Assembly: GCF_019511665.1 (NCBI RefSeq)
Contig: NZ_JAEUAW010000002.1
Location: 1-64,000, forward strand
Source of the DNA: Microbacterium jejuense
GTDB lineage: Bacteria; Actinomycetota; Actinomycetes; Actinomycetales; Microbacteriaceae
DNA length: 64,000 nt
Direction: 5' to 3'
Part shown: positions 9,866 to 64,000 of the stretch, in pieces
How positions within the stretch are numbered: position 1 is the first letter of the stretch
Layout of the letters: each line of letters opens with the position of its first letter
Translations under genes and position numbers: made by a program
The notes under the pieces: generated by a model
What the model saw: the letters and a program-made list of their open reading frames with translations, nothing else
Database searches by the model: none
What the model was told of the DNA's origin: nothing

Positions 9866-10474
9866 ATGACCCCCGTGTTCTCGCACGGCGACCTTCGCCT
9901 GTACCTGCTGAACCTGCTCGATGAGGGGCCGCGGCACGGCTACGACATCATGCAGGCCCTGTCGGACCGCACCGGAGGCACGTACACGCCCAGCGCCGGC
10001 ACCATCTACCCCCGCCTCGCGAAGCTCGAAGAGGAGGGCCTGGTCACCAAGACCGTCGACGGCCGCAAGACGGTCTACGCGATCACGGAGGCCGGTCATG
10101 CCGAGGTGCAGGCCCGCGCCGGTGAGCTCGAGGGCATCGAGGCCGGCCTCGCCGACTCGGTGCGGCTCATCGCCGACGAGGTGCGCGGCAGCGTGCGCGA
10201 GGCGATGAAGAGCCTGCGGGCCGACCTCGCCGCCGCATCGCGCGAAGAGCGCGCCTCGACGCCGCAGGGTCCCCGCGAGGACGACCCGCGCGTGCTGGCC
10301 CGCGAGCAGCTGCAGCGCGCGGATGCGTCGGTGAACGAGTTCCGCGCCCGCGTGCGCAGCGACCTCCGCACCCACGTGGCGCGCGGCGGCGACCTGGCGG
10401 CGACCGTGGTCGACCAGCTGGTCACCGAGCTCGACCGTGTGGCCCGCGACGTCACCCGCGCCCTGCGCGGCTGA
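9866..10474 (+). CDS. PadR-family transcriptional regulator
   Basis: 202 residues. The N-terminal winged helix is classic PadR (LYLLNLLDEGPRHGYDIMQA, then TYTPSAGTIYPRLAKLEEEG and a VDGRKTVYAIT wing). The C-terminal half is long, helical and charged, and is likely the dimerisation region. The ATG at 9866 has AGAGGAG eight bases upstream, inside the end of the DUF4097 gene; a GTG at 9860 is the alternative. It probably represses its own operon through the twin palindromes at 8894 and 8924. Confidence 0.88.
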   Translation: MTPVFSHGDLRLYLLNLLDEGPRHGYDIMQALSDRTGGTYTPSAGTIYPRLAKLEEEGLVTKTVDGRKTVYAITEAGHAEVQARAGELEGIEAGLADSVRLIADEVRGSVREAMKSLRADLAAASREERASTPQGPREDDPRVLAREQLQRADASVNEFRARVRSDLRTHVARGGDLAATVVDQLVTELDRVARDVTRALRG

Positions 10475-10495
10475 GCCTCGCGCACCCCTCAACCG

Positions 10496-10562
10496 CGAGA
10501 CCGCAGCGCGCGGACGAGACACCGGGGTTTGCCCACGGTCTCGTCCGCTCGCTGCGGTCTCG
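10496..10562. repeat. Long imperfect palindrome P1 (25-bp arms)
   Basis: Arms 10496-10520 and 10538-10562 are complementary at 24 of 25 positions (CGAGACCGCAGCG... / ...CGCTGCGGTCTCG), with a 17-base loop. It lies between the converging padR and universal-stress genes and could act as a terminator. It shares its architecture with P2-P11 in other gaps. Confidence 0.85.
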
Positions 10563-10622
10563 CCGTGAGGGACCGGGCGCGGGGCAGTCACGCCGCGAGG
10601 GACGCGGCGCGCGGCGGGTCGG

Positions 10623-11150
10623 TTAGGCCGGCCAGATCTCCTCGTCGTCCGCCACCGGCTCGCCGAGCGGCACGATCAGGATGGGACGGTGCTGGCGGTG
10701 CGCGAGACGCGCGCCGACCGAACCGGTGAAGAACTCGCGCACCGACTCGCCGAACCCCCGCTTGCGCGTGCCGACGACGAGCAGCCGGGCCTCGACCTGG
10801 TCCGCGAAGTGCTTGATAGCCATCGCCGGATCGCCCACGAGCTGACGTGTGACCCAGTCGACGCCGGACCCCTCGAGCACGGCGGTGGCGGCATCCTTCA
10901 CCTTCGTCAGATCCCCTTCGCCGGCGGCGATGTTGAGGTCGATGGGAGCCGAGTGGACATACCCGTCGGGGTCTTCGTACGTGACGAACCGCGTGACGTC
11001 GACGTGCACCACCACGAGCGGGGCCTGGAACAGCTTCGCGTAGCGGGCCGCCTCCTTGAGAACGCGCGCGGACTGGTCGGGCACGACGCCCACGATCACG
11101 GCCCCGTGGAGCCCTTCGTTGCTGACGGCGTCGGATGCCTCGTCGGTCAT
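10623..11150 (-). CDS. Universal stress protein family protein
   Basis: 175 residues, one UspA-like domain. It has the Rossmann-type start GAVIVGVVPDQSARVLKEA, then PLVVVHVDV, and the ATP-loop region LLVVGTRKRGFGESVREFFTGSVGARLAH, which fits the G-2x-G-9x-G(S/T) nucleotide motif. It is probably an ATP-binding stress protein in the cytosol. The start is chosen at 11150, with GGAGGAG nine bases upstream. It is divergent from the DUF3073 gene. Confidence 0.85.
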   Translation of the reverse strand: MTDEASDAVSNEGLHGAVIVGVVPDQSARVLKEAARYAKLFQAPLVVVHVDVTRFVTYEDPDGYVHSAPIDLNIAAGEGDLTKVKDAATAVLEGSGVDWVTRQLVGDPAMAIKHFADQVEARLLVVGTRKRGFGESVREFFTGSVGARLAHRQHRPILIVPLGEPVADDEEIWPA

Positions 11151-11652: not shown

Positions 11653-12912
11653 TCACCAGGCGCCGTGCCGGCGCTCCCACTCGTCCTCGACGGTGTGCGG
11701 ACGTGCCGCGACGACGCCGGCGGGGATCACGGCCGCCACGACGATCGCGAGCACGATGAGCGGACCGGTCCATGAGTCGGTCGCGTCGTGCAGCAGCCCG
11801 ATGCCGAGCGGGAACAGCGCCGCGAGGGCGTAGCCGCCGCTCTGCACGAAGCCGCTCAGGGCGACCGCGCCCTCGTGCGTGCGCGTGCGCAGTCCGAGCA
11901 GCACCAGCACGAGCGGGAACAGCAGCGGAGCGAGGCCGAACAGCGCCACCCACAGCCACGTGGCCACCGTCGGCACGAGCAGCAGGCCGGCGAGGCCGAC
12001 GAACCCGCACGCGACCGCGATGCCGATGAGCAGCCGCGTGGCGTTGCGGCGCGTGACGAGGAGCGGTACGGCGAGGGATGCCGGAAGCCCCATGAAGGCG
12101 AAGAGCGACAGCAGCACGCCGGCGGCGGCCGGGGTGACGCCGGCGGTGTCGACCAGCAGCTTGGGCAGCCACGCGAACGACGTGTACGCCATCGTGGATG
12201 AGGCGCCGAAGCACACCAGCAGCGCCCACGCGAGGGGCACGCGCCACATGCGCCCGAAGGCACGCGGACTCGGCTCGTCGAGGTCGTCCTCCGCGGGCGC
12301 GCCGACGGCCGCCTCGGCCGCGGCCGTCCGCTCGGCGCGATGACGCATGGCCAGGCCGACCCACGGGATCGCACCCGCCAGCGCGAACACCGACCACAGG
12401 CCCAGCGACAGGTGCCAGTCCGTGGCGTCGGCCACCGGCACGGCGATGAGCGCGGGCAGCGACGTCGACACGGCCATCGTGGTCGAGTACACCGTGGTCA
12501 TGAGCCCGATGCGGTCGGGGAAGTAGCGCTTCACCAGCGGCGGCAGCAGGATGTTGCCCGTCCCGACCGCCGCGAACACGAGCGCGGTCCCCGCCAGAAG
12601 CAGACCCGAGCTGGGCGCGAGACTGCGGGCGACGAGACCGAGGGCGACGACGGCCATCGCCGCGACGGCGAGGCGCTCCAGCCCGAAGCGGCGCTCCAGC
12701 GCCGGGGTGAGCAGCCCGAACACCGCGAAGCACACCGGCGGCGCAGTGCCGATGAGGCCGATGACCGCCGCGGGCAGGTCGAACTCCGCCGAGATGTGAT
12801 CGAACAGGGGCGAGAGGGAGGCGACCGCCGACCGCATCGAGAACGCGAACAGCACGATCCCGACCACCGCGAGGGTCCTCCCCTGCCACAGCGGGCGCGG
12901 GGTCGACATCAC
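11653..12912 (-). CDS. MFS transporter, CynX/NimT-like
   Basis: 419 residues with twelve predicted membrane helices and a central charged loop (AEDDLDEPSPRAFGRM). The start LFAFSMRSAVASLSPLFDHI is typical of the CynX/NimT branch (cyanate and 2-nitroimidazole exporters). Substrate unknown. The GTG at 12912 lies six bases after TAGGCT, so a leaderless start there is favoured over the ATG three bases later. It is followed in the same direction by nothing; the DUF3073 gene converges with it. Confidence 0.85.
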   Translation of the reverse strand: MMSTPRPLWQGRTLAVVGIVLFAFSMRSAVASLSPLFDHISAEFDLPAAVIGLIGTAPPVCFAVFGLLTPALERRFGLERLAVAAMAVVALGLVARSLAPSSGLLLAGTALVFAAVGTGNILLPPLVKRYFPDRIGLMTTVYSTTMAVSTSLPALIAVPVADATDWHLSLGLWSVFALAGAIPWVGLAMRHRAERTAAAEAAVGAPAEDDLDEPSPRAFGRMWRVPLAWALLVCFGASSTMAYTSFAWLPKLLVDTAGVTPAAAGVLLSLFAFMGLPASLAVPLLVTRRNATRLLIGIAVACGFVGLAGLLLVPTVATWLWVALFGLAPLLFPLVLVLLGLRTRTHEGAVALSGFVQSGGYALAALFPLGIGLLHDATDSWTGPLIVLAIVVAAVIPAGVVAARPHTVEDEWERRHGAW

Positions 12913-12918
12913 CCCTCC

Positions 12919-12924
12919 AGCCTA
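12919..12924 (-). promoter_or_regulatory. -10 element of the CynX-like transporter (leaderless)
   Basis: TAGGCT on the - strand, six bases before the GTG at 12912. Confidence 0.5.
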
Positions 12925-12931
12925 TGGGGAC

Positions 12932-12958
12932 GTGGATGCGGGGGGCTCCGGCATCCAC
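12932..12958 (-). terminator. GTGGATGC/GCATCCAC hairpin after the iclR gene
   Basis: Perfect 8-bp arms (12932-12939 and 12951-12958) just beyond the stop of the IclR gene at 12965. Confidence 0.5.
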
Positions 12959-12964
12959 TCTCCG

Positions 12965-13729
12965 CTACTGGCTGCTCGACACGTGCCAGGCGCCGCGGCG
13001 CACGATGCGCTCGAGTTCGTGCGCGCGGGCGGCGAAATCGTCGGCCGTCGTCGACAGCGACACCGCGCCGACGGTGCGCCCGCTGCGCGACTTCACCGGT
13101 GCCGCGATGCAGGCGAGCTTCGGCATGTACTCCTCGATCTCGACCGCGATCTGCTGGGCACGCACTTCGTCGAGCTGCTCCAGCAGTTCGCGTTCGCCCG
13201 TGACCGACCGCCGGGCCACCGCTGCGGCGCCGCGACGCTCGAGGAACCACCGCACCTCGGCGTCGTCGCGGGCGGCGAGCATGAGCTTGCCGAAGGCGGT
13301 GACGTGGACGGCCTCGGCGAACCCGACGTGCAGCTGGCCGATGCGCGGGTGCGCCGCCGAGTCCGCCACGTGGGCCACCGCGATGTCGTCGCCGCGGAAC
13401 ACGGTGAGATACGCGGGAGCACGCGCAGCGTCGCGCATGCGAGCGAGGATGTCGCGCACCTCGGGCGTCGCCACGAGCTGGGACCGCACGGCGCGACCGA
13501 GACCGTCGACCGCGCGGCCCAGCGTGTAGCGCGCGTCGGCGCCGCGCACGAGGTAGTCGTGCGTCTGCAGCGTGGCGAGCAGCCGGTAGGTCGTCGCCGT
13601 GGACAGCTCCAGCCGTGCGGCGAGCTCGGCGGCCGTCAGCCCCTCGGCGTCTCCCGACACCTCATCGAGGATCTGCAGCACGCGATCCGCGGAACGGATG
13701 CCGCCGGCCTCGCGCAGGGTGGCGCTCAT
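12965..13729 (-). CDS. IclR-family transcriptional regulator
   Basis: 254 residues: an N-terminal winged helix (SADRVLQILDEVSG; LTAAELAARLELSTATTYRL) and a C-terminal effector domain (HVGFAEAVHVTAFGKLMLA; IAAPVKSRSGRTVGAVSLS) as in IclR. The ATG at 13729 is six bases after a TACACT, so the mRNA is probably leaderless. It is divergent from the DJ-1/PfpI gene across 113 bases and may control it; this is context inference only. Confidence 0.9.
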   Translation of the reverse strand: MSATLREAGGIRSADRVLQILDEVSGDAEGLTAAELAARLELSTATTYRLLATLQTHDYLVRGADARYTLGRAVDGLGRAVRSQLVATPEVRDILARMRDAARAPAYLTVFRGDDIAVAHVADSAAHPRIGQLHVGFAEAVHVTAFGKLMLAARDDAEVRWFLERRGAAAVARRSVTGERELLEQLDEVRAQQIAVEIEEYMPKLACIAAPVKSRSGRTVGAVSLSTTADDFAARAHELERIVRRGAWHVSSSQ

Positions 13730-59435: not shown

Positions 59436-59822
59436 TCACTCTCCTTCGTTGGGTGTGTCGTCTGTGTCATGGATGCCGGCGGCAGGTGCCGGCTCGGAAA
59501 GCAGCGCATCGAGCCGATCGATGCGGGCGCGCCACAGCTCCTCGTACCGCGAGAGCAGGGCGCGGGCGCGGGCGATCATCGCCGGATCCGCCCGGACGAG
59601 GCGTTCGCGCCCTTCGGCGCGCTTGACGATGAGGCCCGCCGCCTCGAGCACGGTGACGTGCTTCTGGACGGCCGCGAACGACATGTCGTAGTCGCGGGCG
59701 AGGGCCGAGACCGAGTGCTCGCCGTCGATCGTCCGGCGCAGGATGTCGCGCCGGGTCGCCGCCGCGAGCGCGTGGAACACGCGGTCGATCTCGTCATCGC
59801 TGAGCTCATTTCGTACAACCAT
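59436..59822 (-). CDS. ArsR-family winged-helix regulator
   Basis: 128 residues. DEIDRVFHALAAATRRDILR, then SVSALARDYDMSFAAVQKHV (recognition helix) and a wing VKRAEGRERLVRADP. No Cys-rich metal site (no ELCVCDL-type motif), so it is not an arsenic sensor but the ArsR type paired with SRPBCC genes. ATG at 59822 is set by the operator and by TAACGT eight bases upstream. It should repress its own three-gene operon. Confidence 0.9.
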   Translation of the reverse strand: MVVRNELSDDEIDRVFHALAAATRRDILRRTIDGEHSVSALARDYDMSFAAVQKHVTVLEAAGLIVKRAEGRERLVRADPAMIARARALLSRYEELWRARIDRLDALLSEPAPAAGIHDTDDTPNEGE

Positions 59823-59836
59823 TTGGTTGTACGTTA
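59812..59836 (-). promoter_or_regulatory. ArsR operator spanning the start codon, with -10
   Basis: A perfect inverted repeat CGTACAACCA-TT-TGGTTGTACG (59812-59833) covers the ArsR ATG (59822-59820) and overlaps a -10-like TAACGT (59836-59831 on the - strand). Confidence 0.75.
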
Positions 59837-59852
59837 CGCCGGCCGCCGGCAT

Positions 59853-60101
59853 CCGTCAACAGCCTCCTGTGTCAGTTGATCGGGAACTCGTATGACACGC
59901 GCCATGATCGGTCGCAGCAGGTGACATGGGGCTGGGCAGCGCGGGATATCACCTGGAGAGGAATCCTGTCCGAGGACCTCGAGTGGGTGAAGGTCTCTCG
60001 GCACTTGCGCACGGGAGCGCCCGCCTACGCGCTGGACACATCCTCACGGCCGTCCGAACGGAGCGACCCGCGCTGAACTACTGGCCGTCACAGCTTCGCG
60101 G
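59853..60101. other. Gap without a supportable gene, start of lower-GC DNA
   Basis: Sequence composition shifts to lower GC here. Short frames run through on the + strand, but none has a ribosome site, a conserved look or steady codon bias. It may hold a degraded gene end at the border of an acquired segment. Confidence 0.5.
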
Positions 60102-60923
60102 CTACACCCAGCCCCGTTGGCGACAGGCAGCGGCGATGAGCTCTGAGACCGTGCCCTGGCCCTCCGCGGTCAGGTGCACGGCGTCCTTACGGATGCGCGC
60201 CGGGACCACGGATGCTGTCTCGCCCGGTGCCGCGTGGATGCGCCGCAGTTCCTCATCCACATCCAGCACATGGTCTTTCCAGGTCATCGAGATCGCGGCG
60301 TTGAGAGTGGTGATGGCTCGACCGGTTGTCGACCGGGGATGATCATCTCCGCCGTGTAACACGGTTAGAACAAGGAAACGACCGGTCTTCAGCCTCGCGA
60401 TCATCGCGGAAAGGTCGCTGATCACGGTGCGGACGTCGCGGAAATTGTTCCTACCGACCCAGAGCACGCCGATGCTCGAGAGATAGGCATCGTGCACATA
60501 GGGAATGTAGGCGGCGTGCCCCGCGAAAGGTGGTGGCGATTCGTCGTCCGCGACGAAGACATATCCACCTTCGACGTCGTCGCGCGCGAAAACCACGCCG
60601 GGCACCCCGTCCAGCCAGCCACCGAGCAGGCTGTTCGTCGTGCCGCTTCCCTGCAGCAGCGGGCGAAAACCTGTGGGTGAGACGAATGAGATGAGATGTT
60701 CACGGGGATGCGAATTCCCGCAGACGTGAGCGGTTATCGGGATGGCGCCCATGCGCGCAGCGACCGTCGTCGATGTCTCCCCGCCAACGCCCGCATTCAG
60801 CACGGCAGCGCGAGTCAGCGCGCTAAGCCCAGCGTCGTCTCCCTGTTGCGTGAGCGAATCACCCCACCGAGCGATCGTCGGTCGGGAGGACCCTGGTGTG
60901 TTCTCGGCGGGGGCGGCGATCAT
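60102..60923 (-). CDS. SGNH/GDSL-type hydrolase
   Basis: 273 residues. Block I GDS motif in IARWGDSLTQQG (nucleophile Ser23), block II Gly in NAGVGGETST, block III Asn in LWVGRNNFRD and block V Asp/His in RKDAVHLTAEG. Together these give the full SGNH set. No signal peptide is evident. Members remove acyl groups from lipids or sugars; next to a carbohydrate-binding gene a sugar esterase role is plausible. Overlaps the upstream dehydrogenase by four bases. Codon use is looser than in the main window. Confidence 0.85.
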   Translation of the reverse strand: MIAAPAENTPGSSRPTIARWGDSLTQQGDDAGLSALTRAAVLNAGVGGETSTTVAARMGAIPITAHVCGNSHPREHLISFVSPTGFRPLLQGSGTTNSLLGGWLDGVPGVVFARDDVEGGYVFVADDESPPPFAGHAAYIPYVHDAYLSSIGVLWVGRNNFRDVRTVISDLSAMIARLKTGRFLVLTVLHGGDDHPRSTTGRAITTLNAAISMTWKDHVLDVDEELRRIHAAPGETASVVPARIRKDAVHLTAEGQGTVSELIAAACRQRGWV

Positions 60924-61978
60924 GCGAGGAGCGTCTGCTGGGAGTGGCTGATGGCATGCGGCGTGGAACCCGTCGCGATCACTCTTCTCAGTTCTTCGAG
61001 GATGAACGTGGTCATCCGGTGGATGTCATGCCCCATCGCGCCTGCGATGTGAGGTGTGACGAAGCAACTCTCCAGGGTGGGCAGTGCACTGTCGGGTGGA
61101 AGGGGCTCAGGTTCGGTCACATCCAAGTAGGCGAAGAGGCGCCCGCTGCTGCACTCGGAGGCTATCGCCTCGGTGTCGATCAGATCCCCTCTCGCGGTGT
61201 TGATCACGGATGCACCGTCACGAAGAGCCGCGAGGCGGGCGGCGTTGATCATCCCGCGCGTGACGGGGACGGATGGCGCATGGAGCGACAGGATGTCGCA
61301 CCAGCGGATGAGCTCGTCGAGATCTCGAGGTTCAGCGCCGGCGCACGCGATCTCTTCCTCGCTGATTGTCGGATCGTACACAGAGATGCTCACGTCGAAA
61401 TGCTGCATCAGGCTCAGCAGATGTCGACCTGTCGCGGACAGCCCGACGATGCCGATGCGGGAGCCGTACAGCCCGGCGTTGGAGCGAACCGCGGGACTCC
61501 AGTAGTCGTCCCCGGTACGGAGTCGATGCGCGAACTGCGTAGCTCGCTTGGCAGCCATGATCACGCAGGCGAGGGCGTACTCGGCGACCGGCACGGCGTT
61601 GGCCGTCCGTGCCGAAACCACGATCAGGTCGGGACGCCACGCGCCCTCCGGGAGGAGGCCGTGAACGCTGCCTCCGATGTGGAGCAATGCCGAGACTTGA
61701 GGCGTGATCAGCTCCGCCGGGATCTGGCCAGCACCCCACCCTGTCAGAAGAAACGCGTGGTCGGTACGGCTCGGCGTCTCGCCGGGCCGTATGTGGATCC
61801 AGTCGACGAGCTCGGTCATTCTCTCCCGCAGAGCGGGAGAGAATGACCCATCGGCATCCTCGTCACTCGCATACAGAACAGCGCGCGGGCGCGCAACAGC
61901 GTCTTCGTTGTCGCGGCCGACGCAGGAACTGCCGCGTGACGCCTTCCCGCGTCTGCCGTCGCGGCCATCCTCTGCCAT
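60920..61978 (-). CDS. D-isomer-specific 2-hydroxyacid dehydrogenase, second copy
   Basis: 352 residues. Rossmann loop IGIVGLSATGRHLLSLMQ (Ser-Ala in place of the common Gly-x-Gly-x-x-Gly, so somewhat unusual), catalytic Arg in VINTARGDLIDTEAI, Glu in VTEPEPLPPDS, and His in FVTPHIAGAMGH. The N-terminal ~30 residues are basic and unlike family members. ATG shares one base with the stop of the upstream gene. Substrate unknown; a sugar-acid step is possible given the neighbours. Confidence 0.83.
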   Translation of the reverse strand: MAEDGRDGRRGKASRGSSCVGRDNEDAVARPRAVLYASDEDADGSFSPALRERMTELVDWIHIRPGETPSRTDHAFLLTGWGAGQIPAELITPQVSALLHIGGSVHGLLPEGAWRPDLIVVSARTANAVPVAEYALACVIMAAKRATQFAHRLRTGDDYWSPAVRSNAGLYGSRIGIVGLSATGRHLLSLMQHFDVSISVYDPTISEEEIACAGAEPRDLDELIRWCDILSLHAPSVPVTRGMINAARLAALRDGASVINTARGDLIDTEAIASECSSGRLFAYLDVTEPEPLPPDSALPTLESCFVTPHIAGAMGHDIHRMTTFILEELRRVIATGSTPHAISHSQQTLLA

Positions 61979-64000
61979 CAGATCTCGCCGACCCTTTGCC
62001 ACGCGCCACCAGAGCCGTCTGGGGCCTGGTTGCGTGACCACCAGCGCGCGCGATAGATCACGCCGTGGTAGAGCACCTTCTCGTCACCCTTATAGATCCA
62101 GCTCGCGGTCCAGGTCCGCACCGGGCCGTCAGGCGTTGCGAGTTCGCAGCCCAGTTGTGACCACGGTCCTGTGGGGTCCCCTGGCCGAAGATCTCTCGTC
62201 CACCACTGAGCGACCCAGAAGCTGCCTTCGAAGTTCACTCGGTCACCCGTGGTGTACGTGGTGTTCGACGACCAGGGGGCCGCGAACTCGATCTCGATCA
62301 GGGCGCTGGCACCCACCGGAATGGACAGCTGGTGGACGCGTCGGGTGCCACCGAGCAAGGTCATGGGAGTGGATGAGAGCGTCACGGCAGACTCGGCCCC
62401 CCAGGAGATCTGCATGCGCACTCCGTTGCGTTGCACGCGAACCCACGTCGCCTGTGCGGCGCTCGTTGCGTTGAACGTCGCCGTCGCACCATTCGAGTAC
62501 GTGACCTCGTCTGTCGCGCGTAGGACGAGAGGCAGCCGGAATGAACCTGTGGCGGCGGCGTCCGCATACAGTGTGAGGCCTGTGTCTCGCAGCGTGGTCA
62601 GGGCCCTCGTCCCGCTCGCAGAGCTGGTCGCGTCGAAGGTGATGACGCCCGTCTCCGCATCGAGGGCATCCGGGACGATCACCGCGCCGGAACCGCTGTT
62701 GCCGTGGCGATACACGACCGTCATGTCGGACAGGGTCGAATCGGTTCCAGCCCCGTCGACGAACCCCCATGAGGCCGCGCCGACGGATGTGTTCGTCGCG
62801 GCCAGGACGGTGCCCATCTGAGGGTGCCAGAGCAGGCCCGGTCCCATTCGGTTCATCGGTTGGGAGCGCGTGCCGAAGAACGAAGAGAGGTAGTACGCGG
62901 GGCGGCGGGCGAAGACATAGTCCTGGGCCAGTGTGCCCACCCGTCGCTCCGTGAACCTCTCGGACATGATGTATGGCAGCGATGCCTCGGACGCAGCACG
63001 GTCGGCATCCGACGGCACGTCTGGTCGCTCGATCACGTGCATCCAGAGCCGCGGGGACGTCCCCTGCTTGGCACGGGCGACAACAGGATCGGGTGTTGCG
63101 GCCCACGCACCCCGGGACGCGAGCTTCTCCTCCAAAGTTGTAAGGAAGGCCGCGAGCTCCGGAGCCTCGGGGGCGAGCGCCGCGCTCAGCGCACCGCGTT
63201 CGGCATCGTCGGTGAAGTTCGTCAAGAAGTTCCAGTCCGCCGTCCGCGAGCATGCGGCGGAGTGGGCGATATAGCCGGACACATCCGGCTCGCGCACCAC
63301 GGCATGGCGAGCGAAGTCCGTCCACTTCTGCGCCATGTCGAGGACCACGGGATTGCCCGTGATGACGTGCAGGTCGGCGAGGTCAGGCAGCATCACGAAG
63401 AAGTTGTACCCGAAGTCGAAGCCGAACGGCTCGTGGAAGAACCCGGCCGGCGCCTGCCCATGCTCGGCGATGAAATCGATCCGGTCGCTCAGATCGGCCG
63501 CCAGCTGAGCGTCGTCGAGGACGCGTGCCGCTCGCGCGATACCAGCGAGCCCGCCCACCGTCTGATTCACGAAAGGGAGCGGGATCTTCCAGTGGCCGTT
63601 TGTCAGATCCATGAACCAGACCGACGCACGGCGCAGCGCCGCCTCGAGCTCGACCTGACGCTCCGGCAGCGCATTCGTAGCTCGGAGGTTCGCAAGCGCT
63701 TCTGATAGCGCGACCATGCCGAACGCAGTCGCCGCACGGGAGAACTCGGTCGTCGTGTACTCGGGGAACGCCCCGTTGGGGTGTTGAATTCGCAGGTAGT
63801 GCCCAATCGCGGCGTCCAGCCGACCCAGCAGAGCACTGTCGAGGTAGTACGGGTTCCAGCTGCGCTCGTTCGCGTAGAACCAACTGAGCGTGGCCACATG
63901 TTCCTGTACCCGCGCGTTGAAGGGCTCGCTCGGGGTGCGCCACCAGCCTCCACCCATGAACCCGAATCGGTCCGGATCGTCGTCGACGATGTCGTTCGCC
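61978..64000 (-). CDS. Polysaccharide-active protein: alpha-toroid and beta domains with two CBM5/12 modules (5' end missing)
   Basis: 674 residues are visible and the frame is open at the window edge, so the N-terminus is lacking. The first ~270 residues are helical with aromatic repeats (HVATLSWFYANERSWNPYYL; IQHPNGAFPEY; MDLTNGHWKIPLPFVNQTVG), like the (alpha/alpha) toroid of polysaccharide lyases and related glycosidases. A beta-rich middle follows. The last ~95 residues hold two chitin-binding-type CBM5/12 modules (YTTGDRVNFEGSFWVAQWWT; YHGVIYRARWWSRNQAPDG). Probably secreted. Coupled to the dehydrogenase gene (TGATG). Lyase or hydrolase activity is not proven. Confidence 0.75.
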   Translation of the reverse strand, partial: ANDIVDDDPDRFGFMGGGWWRTPSEPFNARVQEHVATLSWFYANERSWNPYYLDSALLGRLDAAIGHYLRIQHPNGAFPEYTTTEFSRAATAFGMVALSEALANLRATNALPERQVELEAALRRASVWFMDLTNGHWKIPLPFVNQTVGGLAGIARAARVLDDAQLAADLSDRIDFIAEHGQAPAGFFHEPFGFDFGYNFFVMLPDLADLHVITGNPVVLDMAQKWTDFARHAVVREPDVSGYIAHSAACSRTADWNFLTNFTDDAERGALSAALAPEAPELAAFLTTLEEKLASRGAWAATPDPVVARAKQGTSPRLWMHVIERPDVPSDADRAASEASLPYIMSERFTERRVGTLAQDYVFARRPAYYLSSFFGTRSQPMNRMGPGLLWHPQMGTVLAATNTSVGAASWGFVDGAGTDSTLSDMTVVYRHGNSGSGAVIVPDALDAETGVITFDATSSASGTRALTTLRDTGLTLYADAAATGSFRLPLVLRATDEVTYSNGATATFNATSAAQATWVRVQRNGVRMQISWGAESAVTLSSTPMTLLGGTRRVHQLSIPVGASALIEIEFAAPWSSNTTYTTGDRVNFEGSFWVAQWWTRDLRPGDPTGPWSQLGCELATPDGPVRTWTASWIYKGDEKVLYHGVIYRARWWSRNQAPDGSGGAWQRVGEI

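Follow-up and report, generated by a model that had tools for sequence, protein, structure and literature searches.

The window analysed here, bases 1-64000 of a 414,449-base contig of the 4.2-Mb Microbacterium jejuense genome, ends within an operon that encodes, among its enzymes, a large protein with a predicted toroid domain (the toroid protein). A sequence-only reading of this DNA had described, in the final part of the window, three genes joined by 1- and 4-base overlaps and cut off from the rest of their cluster. Both points proved correct: the toroid stop and dehydrogenase start share one base (TGATG), the dehydrogenase stop and SGNH start share four (ATGA), and extension of the contig showed the remaining operon genes upstream, the three-gene set being the last three genes of a transporter operon. 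The operon lies in a segment of lowered G+C content (GC), here called the island, with the following features:

59436-59852, minus strand: ArsR-type regulator (PF12840, E 4.1e-9), part of the core locus at the left island border and outside the operon
60102-60923, minus strand: SGNH-like hydrolase, 273 residues, recognised from its open reading frame and motifs, with no signal peptide seen by eye
60920-61978, minus strand: D-2-hydroxyacid dehydrogenase, 352 residues, with a GLSATG loop (PF02826, E 1.1e-43)
61978-64000, minus strand: 3′ part of the toroid gene within the window; the whole gene (61978-64251) encodes 757 residues
61981-62286, minus strand: C-terminal segment of the toroid protein (residues 656-757) with two CBM5/12 modules (PF02839)
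64300-65253, minus strand, beyond the window: MalFG-type permease (BPD_transp_1, Pfam)
65243-66256, minus strand, beyond the window: MalFG-type permease (BPD_transp_1, Pfam)
66172-67473, minus strand, beyond the window: solute-binding protein (SBP_bac_1, Pfam), with a lipobox read by eye
67642-68682, minus strand, beyond the window: LacI regulator (Pfam)
68775-70409, plus strand, beyond the window: FAD oxidoreductase (FAD_oxidored, Pfam), divergent from the operon
70546-71943, plus strand, beyond the window: GH29 (Pfam), on the same side as the FAD oxidoreductase

Transcription on the minus strand runs from LacI through the solute-binding protein, the two permeases and the toroid gene to the dehydrogenase and SGNH genes. 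Actinobacterial CUT1 sugar ABC operons combine a LacI regulator, a solute-binding protein, MalF/MalG-like permeases and enzymes, and the window operon has the same gene set and order, with the SBP_bac_1 protein, both BPD_transp_1 permeases and LacI all identified by Pfam. The locus is an accessory LacI-linked ABC sugar-utilisation operon of ordinary architecture. The coupling of a secreted enzyme to a cytosolic dehydrogenase, which the sequence-only reading had considered unusual, is ordinary in such a locus, where exported and cytosolic enzymes are co-transcribed. Compared with the CUT1 type, the window operon adds a probably exported, lyase-like enzyme and the coupled dehydrogenase and SGNH genes, a pair seen in four Microbacterium genomes only. 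We scanned 16 loci in which the FAD oxidoreductase gene diverges from the LacI and solute-binding protein genes for perfect palindromes and LacI-like motifs and found no shared LacI operator; a GCAAC-G-GTTGC palindrome was present in the window and in the related genome G021 only. The operon is of a known kind, and what stands out is its enzyme family, which is unnamed in the libraries searched.

The toroid protein comprises a twin-arginine signal, a toroid followed by a beta-sandwich, and two C-terminal CBM5/12 copies, the last matched by PF02839 above the Pfam cut-off in two stretches (best at residues 660-697). The CBM5/12 segment was also present in the orthologues at loci L032 and L033, and the 671-residue G021 orthologue aligned only as far as residue 656-658. 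No family for the catalytic domain was found in Pfam or NCBIfam, a sequence search of the PDB returned no convincing match, and we found no description of the toroid family in the open-licence literature (supplementary files being outside the scope of that search). The Pfam TAT_signal family did not match the window protein, in which the twin arginine was read from the sequence, and matched 5 of 34 homologues, among which the twin arginine is conserved at 90% or more. From this signal the protein is probably exported, and with the CBM5/12 match it supports the earlier description of a large, probably secreted carbohydrate-binding enzyme.

To obtain a structural model, we used an alignment of 34 sequences (A2), consisting of 32 of the 34 toroid genes from the loci described below, with L033 and L062 omitted as near-duplicates, together with the window and G021 proteins. 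The resulting model had a mean predicted local distance difference test score (pLDDT) of 89.9 and a predicted template modelling score (pTM) of 0.87, and superseded an earlier six-sequence model of the same fold family (pLDDT 75.4). The first Foldseek rows were chondroitin, xanthan, hyaluronate and glycosaminoglycan lyases, including a chondroitinase (E 3.1e-11) and the xanthan lyase 2e22 (E 9.6e-11, probability 1.00, query TM-score 0.47). Full-length comparison with VIA-align gave GAGase II (Z 17.4, root-mean-square deviation (rmsd) 6.2, 462 residues aligned), PL33 (Z 16.7, rmsd 5.4, 477 aligned), HepC (Z 16.7, rmsd 5.4, 451 aligned) and PL17 (Z 16.5, rmsd 6.5, 484 aligned). The full-length structural matches to PL12-, PL17-, PL35- and PL33-type lyases thus lie at Z 16-17.4 and rmsd 5.4-6.5 over 451-484 residues, GAGase II being the PL35 representative. 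The sequence-only reading had proposed a toroid and suggested a structural comparison with lyase families; the model supports the toroid, and the matches to two-domain lyases span residues 63-655. We read this as a two-domain polysaccharide-lyase fold, toroid plus beta-sandwich, which the modelled protein would share with PL8, GAGase II, PL33, PL12 and PL17. It differs from these lyases in its lack of a Pfam match to the PL8 or heparinase families, in an identity of about 10% in the structural alignments, and in an unconserved His position.

Eight residues, N229, Q230, D279, Y282, E321, R336, R450 and Y454, were invariant in all 34 sequences, and H476 was kept in 30. A weak profile alignment placed N229, H273 and Y282 on the conserved Asn, His and Tyr of PL8, the invariant Asn and Tyr of the toroid protein falling on the PL8 pair. 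An N194A mutant and Tyr mutants appear in the titles of PL8 structures in the PDB, and this Asn (N194) and Tyr are the catalytic residues of PL8. As candidates for the Asn-His-Tyr-Arg catalytic set of PL8, N229, Y282 and R336 occurred in all 34 sequences and H273 in 18. The PL8 Pfam domains (Lyase_8_N and Lyase_8) were found neither in the window protein nor among the families listed for the 34 homologues, and Hepar_II_III was likewise not among the Pfam families that those homologues matched.

Taken together, we predict, with a probability of roughly 0.6, that the toroid protein is a lyase acting on a uronic-acid polysaccharide and feeding the importer of the accessory operon. The enzyme would leave the cell by the twin-arginine translocation (Tat) route, and its CBM5/12 modules may bind an insoluble or wall-associated glycan. 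It would then split a uronic-acid-containing polysaccharide by beta-elimination, with N229 and Y282 acting as in PL8-type lyases, and the products could be imported via the MalFG-type permeases, energised by an ATPase encoded elsewhere. Inside the cell, the SGNH hydrolase may strip ester groups, and the FAD oxidoreductase and the 2-hydroxyacid dehydrogenase would process the resulting sugar acids or keto acids.

Several observations weigh against this prediction. The Foldseek query TM-scores were low (0.41-0.49 in the first 20 rows), PL8 entries were absent from the best 50 VIA-align rows though prominent in Foldseek, and the hhalign probability was 4.4% to PL8 and 0.5% to heparinases. A His at the position of H273 occurred in only 18 of the 34 sequences. 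Seven of 32 toroid loci (L045, L051, L053, L054, L056, L060 and L061) had no match to the transporter genes of this operon in the stretch covered, some of these stretches being incomplete. Finally, of the four genomes that carry the operon, those of G021, L032 and L033 had no GH88/105 match and so lack the step by which unsaturated uronates are usually processed further; the fourth carrier is the window genome. The window genome has one GH88/105 match, on another contig. On contig C3 of that genome, matches of the heparinase II/III type (1855-2355) and GH88/105 (10166-10912) lie about 8 kb apart and perhaps form a separate lyase locus.

The same scaffold also carries glycoside hydrolases and sugar epimerases, and the toroid protein could be one of these instead of a lyase, which we consider unlikely while giving it more weight than any other alternative. 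The highest VIA-align score of all belonged to toroid-only sugar 2-epimerases (Z 18.7, rmsd 4.4, 300 aligned, residues 67-414), but these lack a second domain, whereas the lyases match over residues 63-655. Human dermatan sulfate epimerase did match over the full length (Z 16.7). A kinship with GH127 could be drawn from GH127 structures in Foldseek (9.5e-7) and from PF07944, which matched 3 of the 34 homologues weakly (best E 0.0014) and left the window protein unmatched; GH127 enzymes, however, require a Cys, and none is among the invariant toroid residues. Rows for alpha-1,6-mannanase, which had appeared at E 0.002 with the six-sequence profile, vanished with the 34-sequence profile, and we rejected this kinship.

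We also considered whether the operon could be a module of xanthan utilisation, and judge this improbable. In G021, the operon lies within 7 kb of a cluster of GH9, 2-hydroxyacid dehydrogenase, solute-binding protein, GH38 and PL8 genes, which resembles the published xanthan clusters of Microbacterium sp. XT11 and Paenarthrobacter ilicis (PMC12772297). PL8 was found in 13 of 16 chosen toroid carriers, a count in which two rows are probably one genome and which has no matched control. By gene name, the XT11 and P. ilicis 6C clusters share ABC permeases, a solute-binding protein and a hydroxyacid dehydrogenase with the window operon, and the P. ilicis cluster additionally shares LacI and an FAD-dependent oxidoreductase; the passages describing them name no toroid-type enzyme for either cluster (PMC12772297). 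Unlike the xanthan clusters, the window operon encodes no protein with a PL8, GH9, GH38 or GH3 match; of the markers PL8 and GH9, the genome-wide search covered PL8 only and not GH9, and it gave no PF08124 match in the window genome. In G155, which agrees in PL8 coordinates and scores with G059, the genome of the L033 locus, and is probably the same genome, PL8 genes lie on contigs C20 and C30 and the operon on C43. Across the 149 genomes of the genus, PL8 occurred in 3 of 9 toroid carriers and in 17 of the 140 remaining genomes (p = 0.10, one-sided Fisher test). The association with xanthan therefore lacks significance across the genus and serves only as a lead.

The XT11 and P. ilicis 6C xanthan clusters are reported to have a hydroxyacid dehydrogenase and no GH88, with an FAD-dependent oxidoreductase and LacI also listed for P. 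ilicis (PMC12772297). The dehydrogenase in the G021 xanthan cluster belongs to the same subfamily as that of the window (37% identity). A bolder proposal, which we likewise hold to be improbable, is that the toroid proteins form an undescribed polysaccharide lyase family and open a route for uronic-acid polysaccharides in which the conserved FAD oxidoreductase and the dehydrogenase, not GH88, handle the unsaturated uronate. If true, the same solution could explain how glucuronate is removed in the GH88-less xanthan clusters of XT11 and P. ilicis 6C. The toroid proteins make up a compact family, probably exported, predicted to have a lyase fold and unnamed in Pfam and NCBIfam, and roughly half of its members come with the same set of partners. 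They offer direct access to what may be a new enzyme family and to its substrate, and bear on how GH88-less lyase pathways are completed.

The dehydrogenase has the PF02826 NAD-binding domain and the Arg, Glu/Asp and His catalytic residues of its family. Its altered glycine loop had been singled out in the sequence-only reading, and we rejected the loop as an oddity: in 31 dehydrogenases, comprising those of the 30 best-matching loci (window included) and the G021 xanthan-cluster copy, and representing the nearest subfamily of the 2-hydroxyacid dehydrogenases, Ser replaced the second Gly in all 31, the last Gly was kept in 30, and the catalytic Arg and His were present in every one. By sequence, the protein is an ordinary member of this subfamily. 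Among the matches listed for the 149 genomes, an orthologue at 82-83% identity was seen in the toroid carriers G155 and G021 only, the next being at most 47%. For the SGNH assignment, the motifs GDS, GVGG, GRNN and DAVH, candidates for blocks I, II, III and V of SGNH hydrolases, were invariant in all four orthologues, and the label comes from these motifs only; no family profile matched, in Pfam at E 1 or in NCBIfam at E 0.1. The protein is probably a cytosolic esterase or deacetylase. A phage tail spike was its best sequence match in the PDB, and a weak one (E 0.009).

The toroid domain was found in 9 of the 149 genus genomes, three of which, the window's included, carry versions at least 89% identical. 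A scan of the species-genome collection, seeded from two short peptide patterns and not exhaustive, yielded at least 34 toroid genes in 32 loci, all in genera that we take to be Actinobacteria; plasmid records added four Streptomyces, one Nonomuraea and one Gemmatirosa (28%). Partners in the 32 loci were counted by tblastn at 40% identity or more, since gene lists in relatives came from a rule on GC by codon position that misses genes (e.g., the G021 dehydrogenase). We counted the FAD oxidoreductase in 17 loci, the solute-binding protein in 16, the permeases in 16 and 17, LacI in 14, the dehydrogenase in 2, SGNH in 2 and GH29 in none. The dehydrogenase-SGNH pair thus occurred in 2 of the 32 loci, plus the window and G021, and GH29 was rejected as a core member of the operon. 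Other enzymes adjoin in places: L036 and L042 have GH2 next to the FAD oxidoreductase, and L055 has a Gfo/Idh protein next to the toroid gene; an enolase-superfamily protein of the sugar-acid dehydratase type occurs in the L038 and L043 neighbourhoods; and GH1 and GH36 lie beside the FAD oxidoreductase in L032, with genes of matching beginnings in G021 and L033. In L034 (Occultella), a polysaccharide pyruvyl-transferase-like gene (12292-13632) directly follows the toroid gene, before the permeases. G047 has four toroid paralogues on contigs C18 and C11, with closely similar LacI, solute-binding protein and permease genes beside the C11 copy only.

The looser base composition and codon use that had been noted from about 59.88 kb were borne out by our scans. 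GC was 0.656 over 59,860-76,170 versus 0.709 for the remainder of 115 kb of the extended contig, a low stretch of 16.3 kb that begins at about 59.86 kb and ends at about 76.17 kb, well beyond the window end. Composition was abnormal in sliding windows: over 1-59 kb, 1-kb steps had a mean GC of 0.709 (standard deviation 0.022), with 2 of 59 at or below 0.66; 4-kb windows starting before 55.9 kb (n = 224) had a minimum of 0.672, and 60-64 kb had 0.654; and all 132 of the 16-kb windows outside 59,860-76,170 fell within 0.697-0.719. GC at third codon positions (GC3) was 0.73-0.79 in the toroid, dehydrogenase and SGNH genes and 0.73-0.86 across the operon genes, FAD oxidoreductase and GH29, against a mean of 0.926 in 33 gene-like open reading frames of at least 200 residues upstream (1-59.86 kb), 2 of which were equally low (0.74 and 0.79).

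To its left, the island borders on ArsR and AHSA1, which form a core locus (144 of the 149 genomes have AHSA1), and its right neighbour is PurL-like. The purL-arsR distance was 20 bp in G088, where the site is empty, 0.9 kb in G012, 2.7 kb in G078, 7.1 kb in G132 and 13.0 kb in G091, so that over six genomes, the window's included, it ranged from 20 bp to 16 kb, with other cargo elsewhere. The operon sits at this variable site between purL and the ArsR-AHSA1 pair. We fetched the region from six relatives, one of whose contigs ended, and none of the five sites with both flanks held operon genes; with the toroid domain in so few genomes, orthologues are not at one place in all relatives. G021 was the one relative with the operon in which more than about 10 kb was read. 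There, too, the operon adjoins ArsR-AHSA1, its order and orientation unchanged and a single additional gene intervening, and purL was not found in the 80 kb read. Synteny in G021 does not reach past ArsR-AHSA1: the gene to the left of these, an alpha/beta hydrolase, is not conserved (a 31% local match only, against an 81% counterpart in G088), and the genomes of L032, L033 and G155 had none or one at 29%. Nor did L032 or L033 (M. bovistercoris, in G059) have the flank genes within 10 kb on each side of the operon. Operon proteins of the window and G021 were 82-95% identical, compared with 63% for AHSA1 and 78% for ArsR, a contrast that suggests acquisition of the operon by transfer and falls short of proof.

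One could see in the island a decaying pile of foreign genes with no current role: the neighbouring GH1 gene is cut down to about 72 codons, Wadjet genes are truncated at the right end, and other genomes carry different cargo at the same site. We regard this as very unlikely, as the operon genes and the FAD oxidoreductase are full-length open frames, all eight of them 82-95% identical to their L032 and L033 orthologues; GH29 has no counterpart in either. The GH1 remnant (contig about 70435-70652, beyond the window) consists of the start (MHD) fused in frame to the last 70 or so codons, the latter 215 bp long and 88% identical to L032. In L032 the GH1 gene is full-length, counterparts also occur in L033 and G021, and the predicted GH29 start overlaps the remnant. 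The truncated Wadjet-type genes lie at contig 72121-76174, likewise beyond the window; JetA matches only positions 1-106 of a 487-position profile, JetC matches from position 363 on, and JetD is nearly whole.

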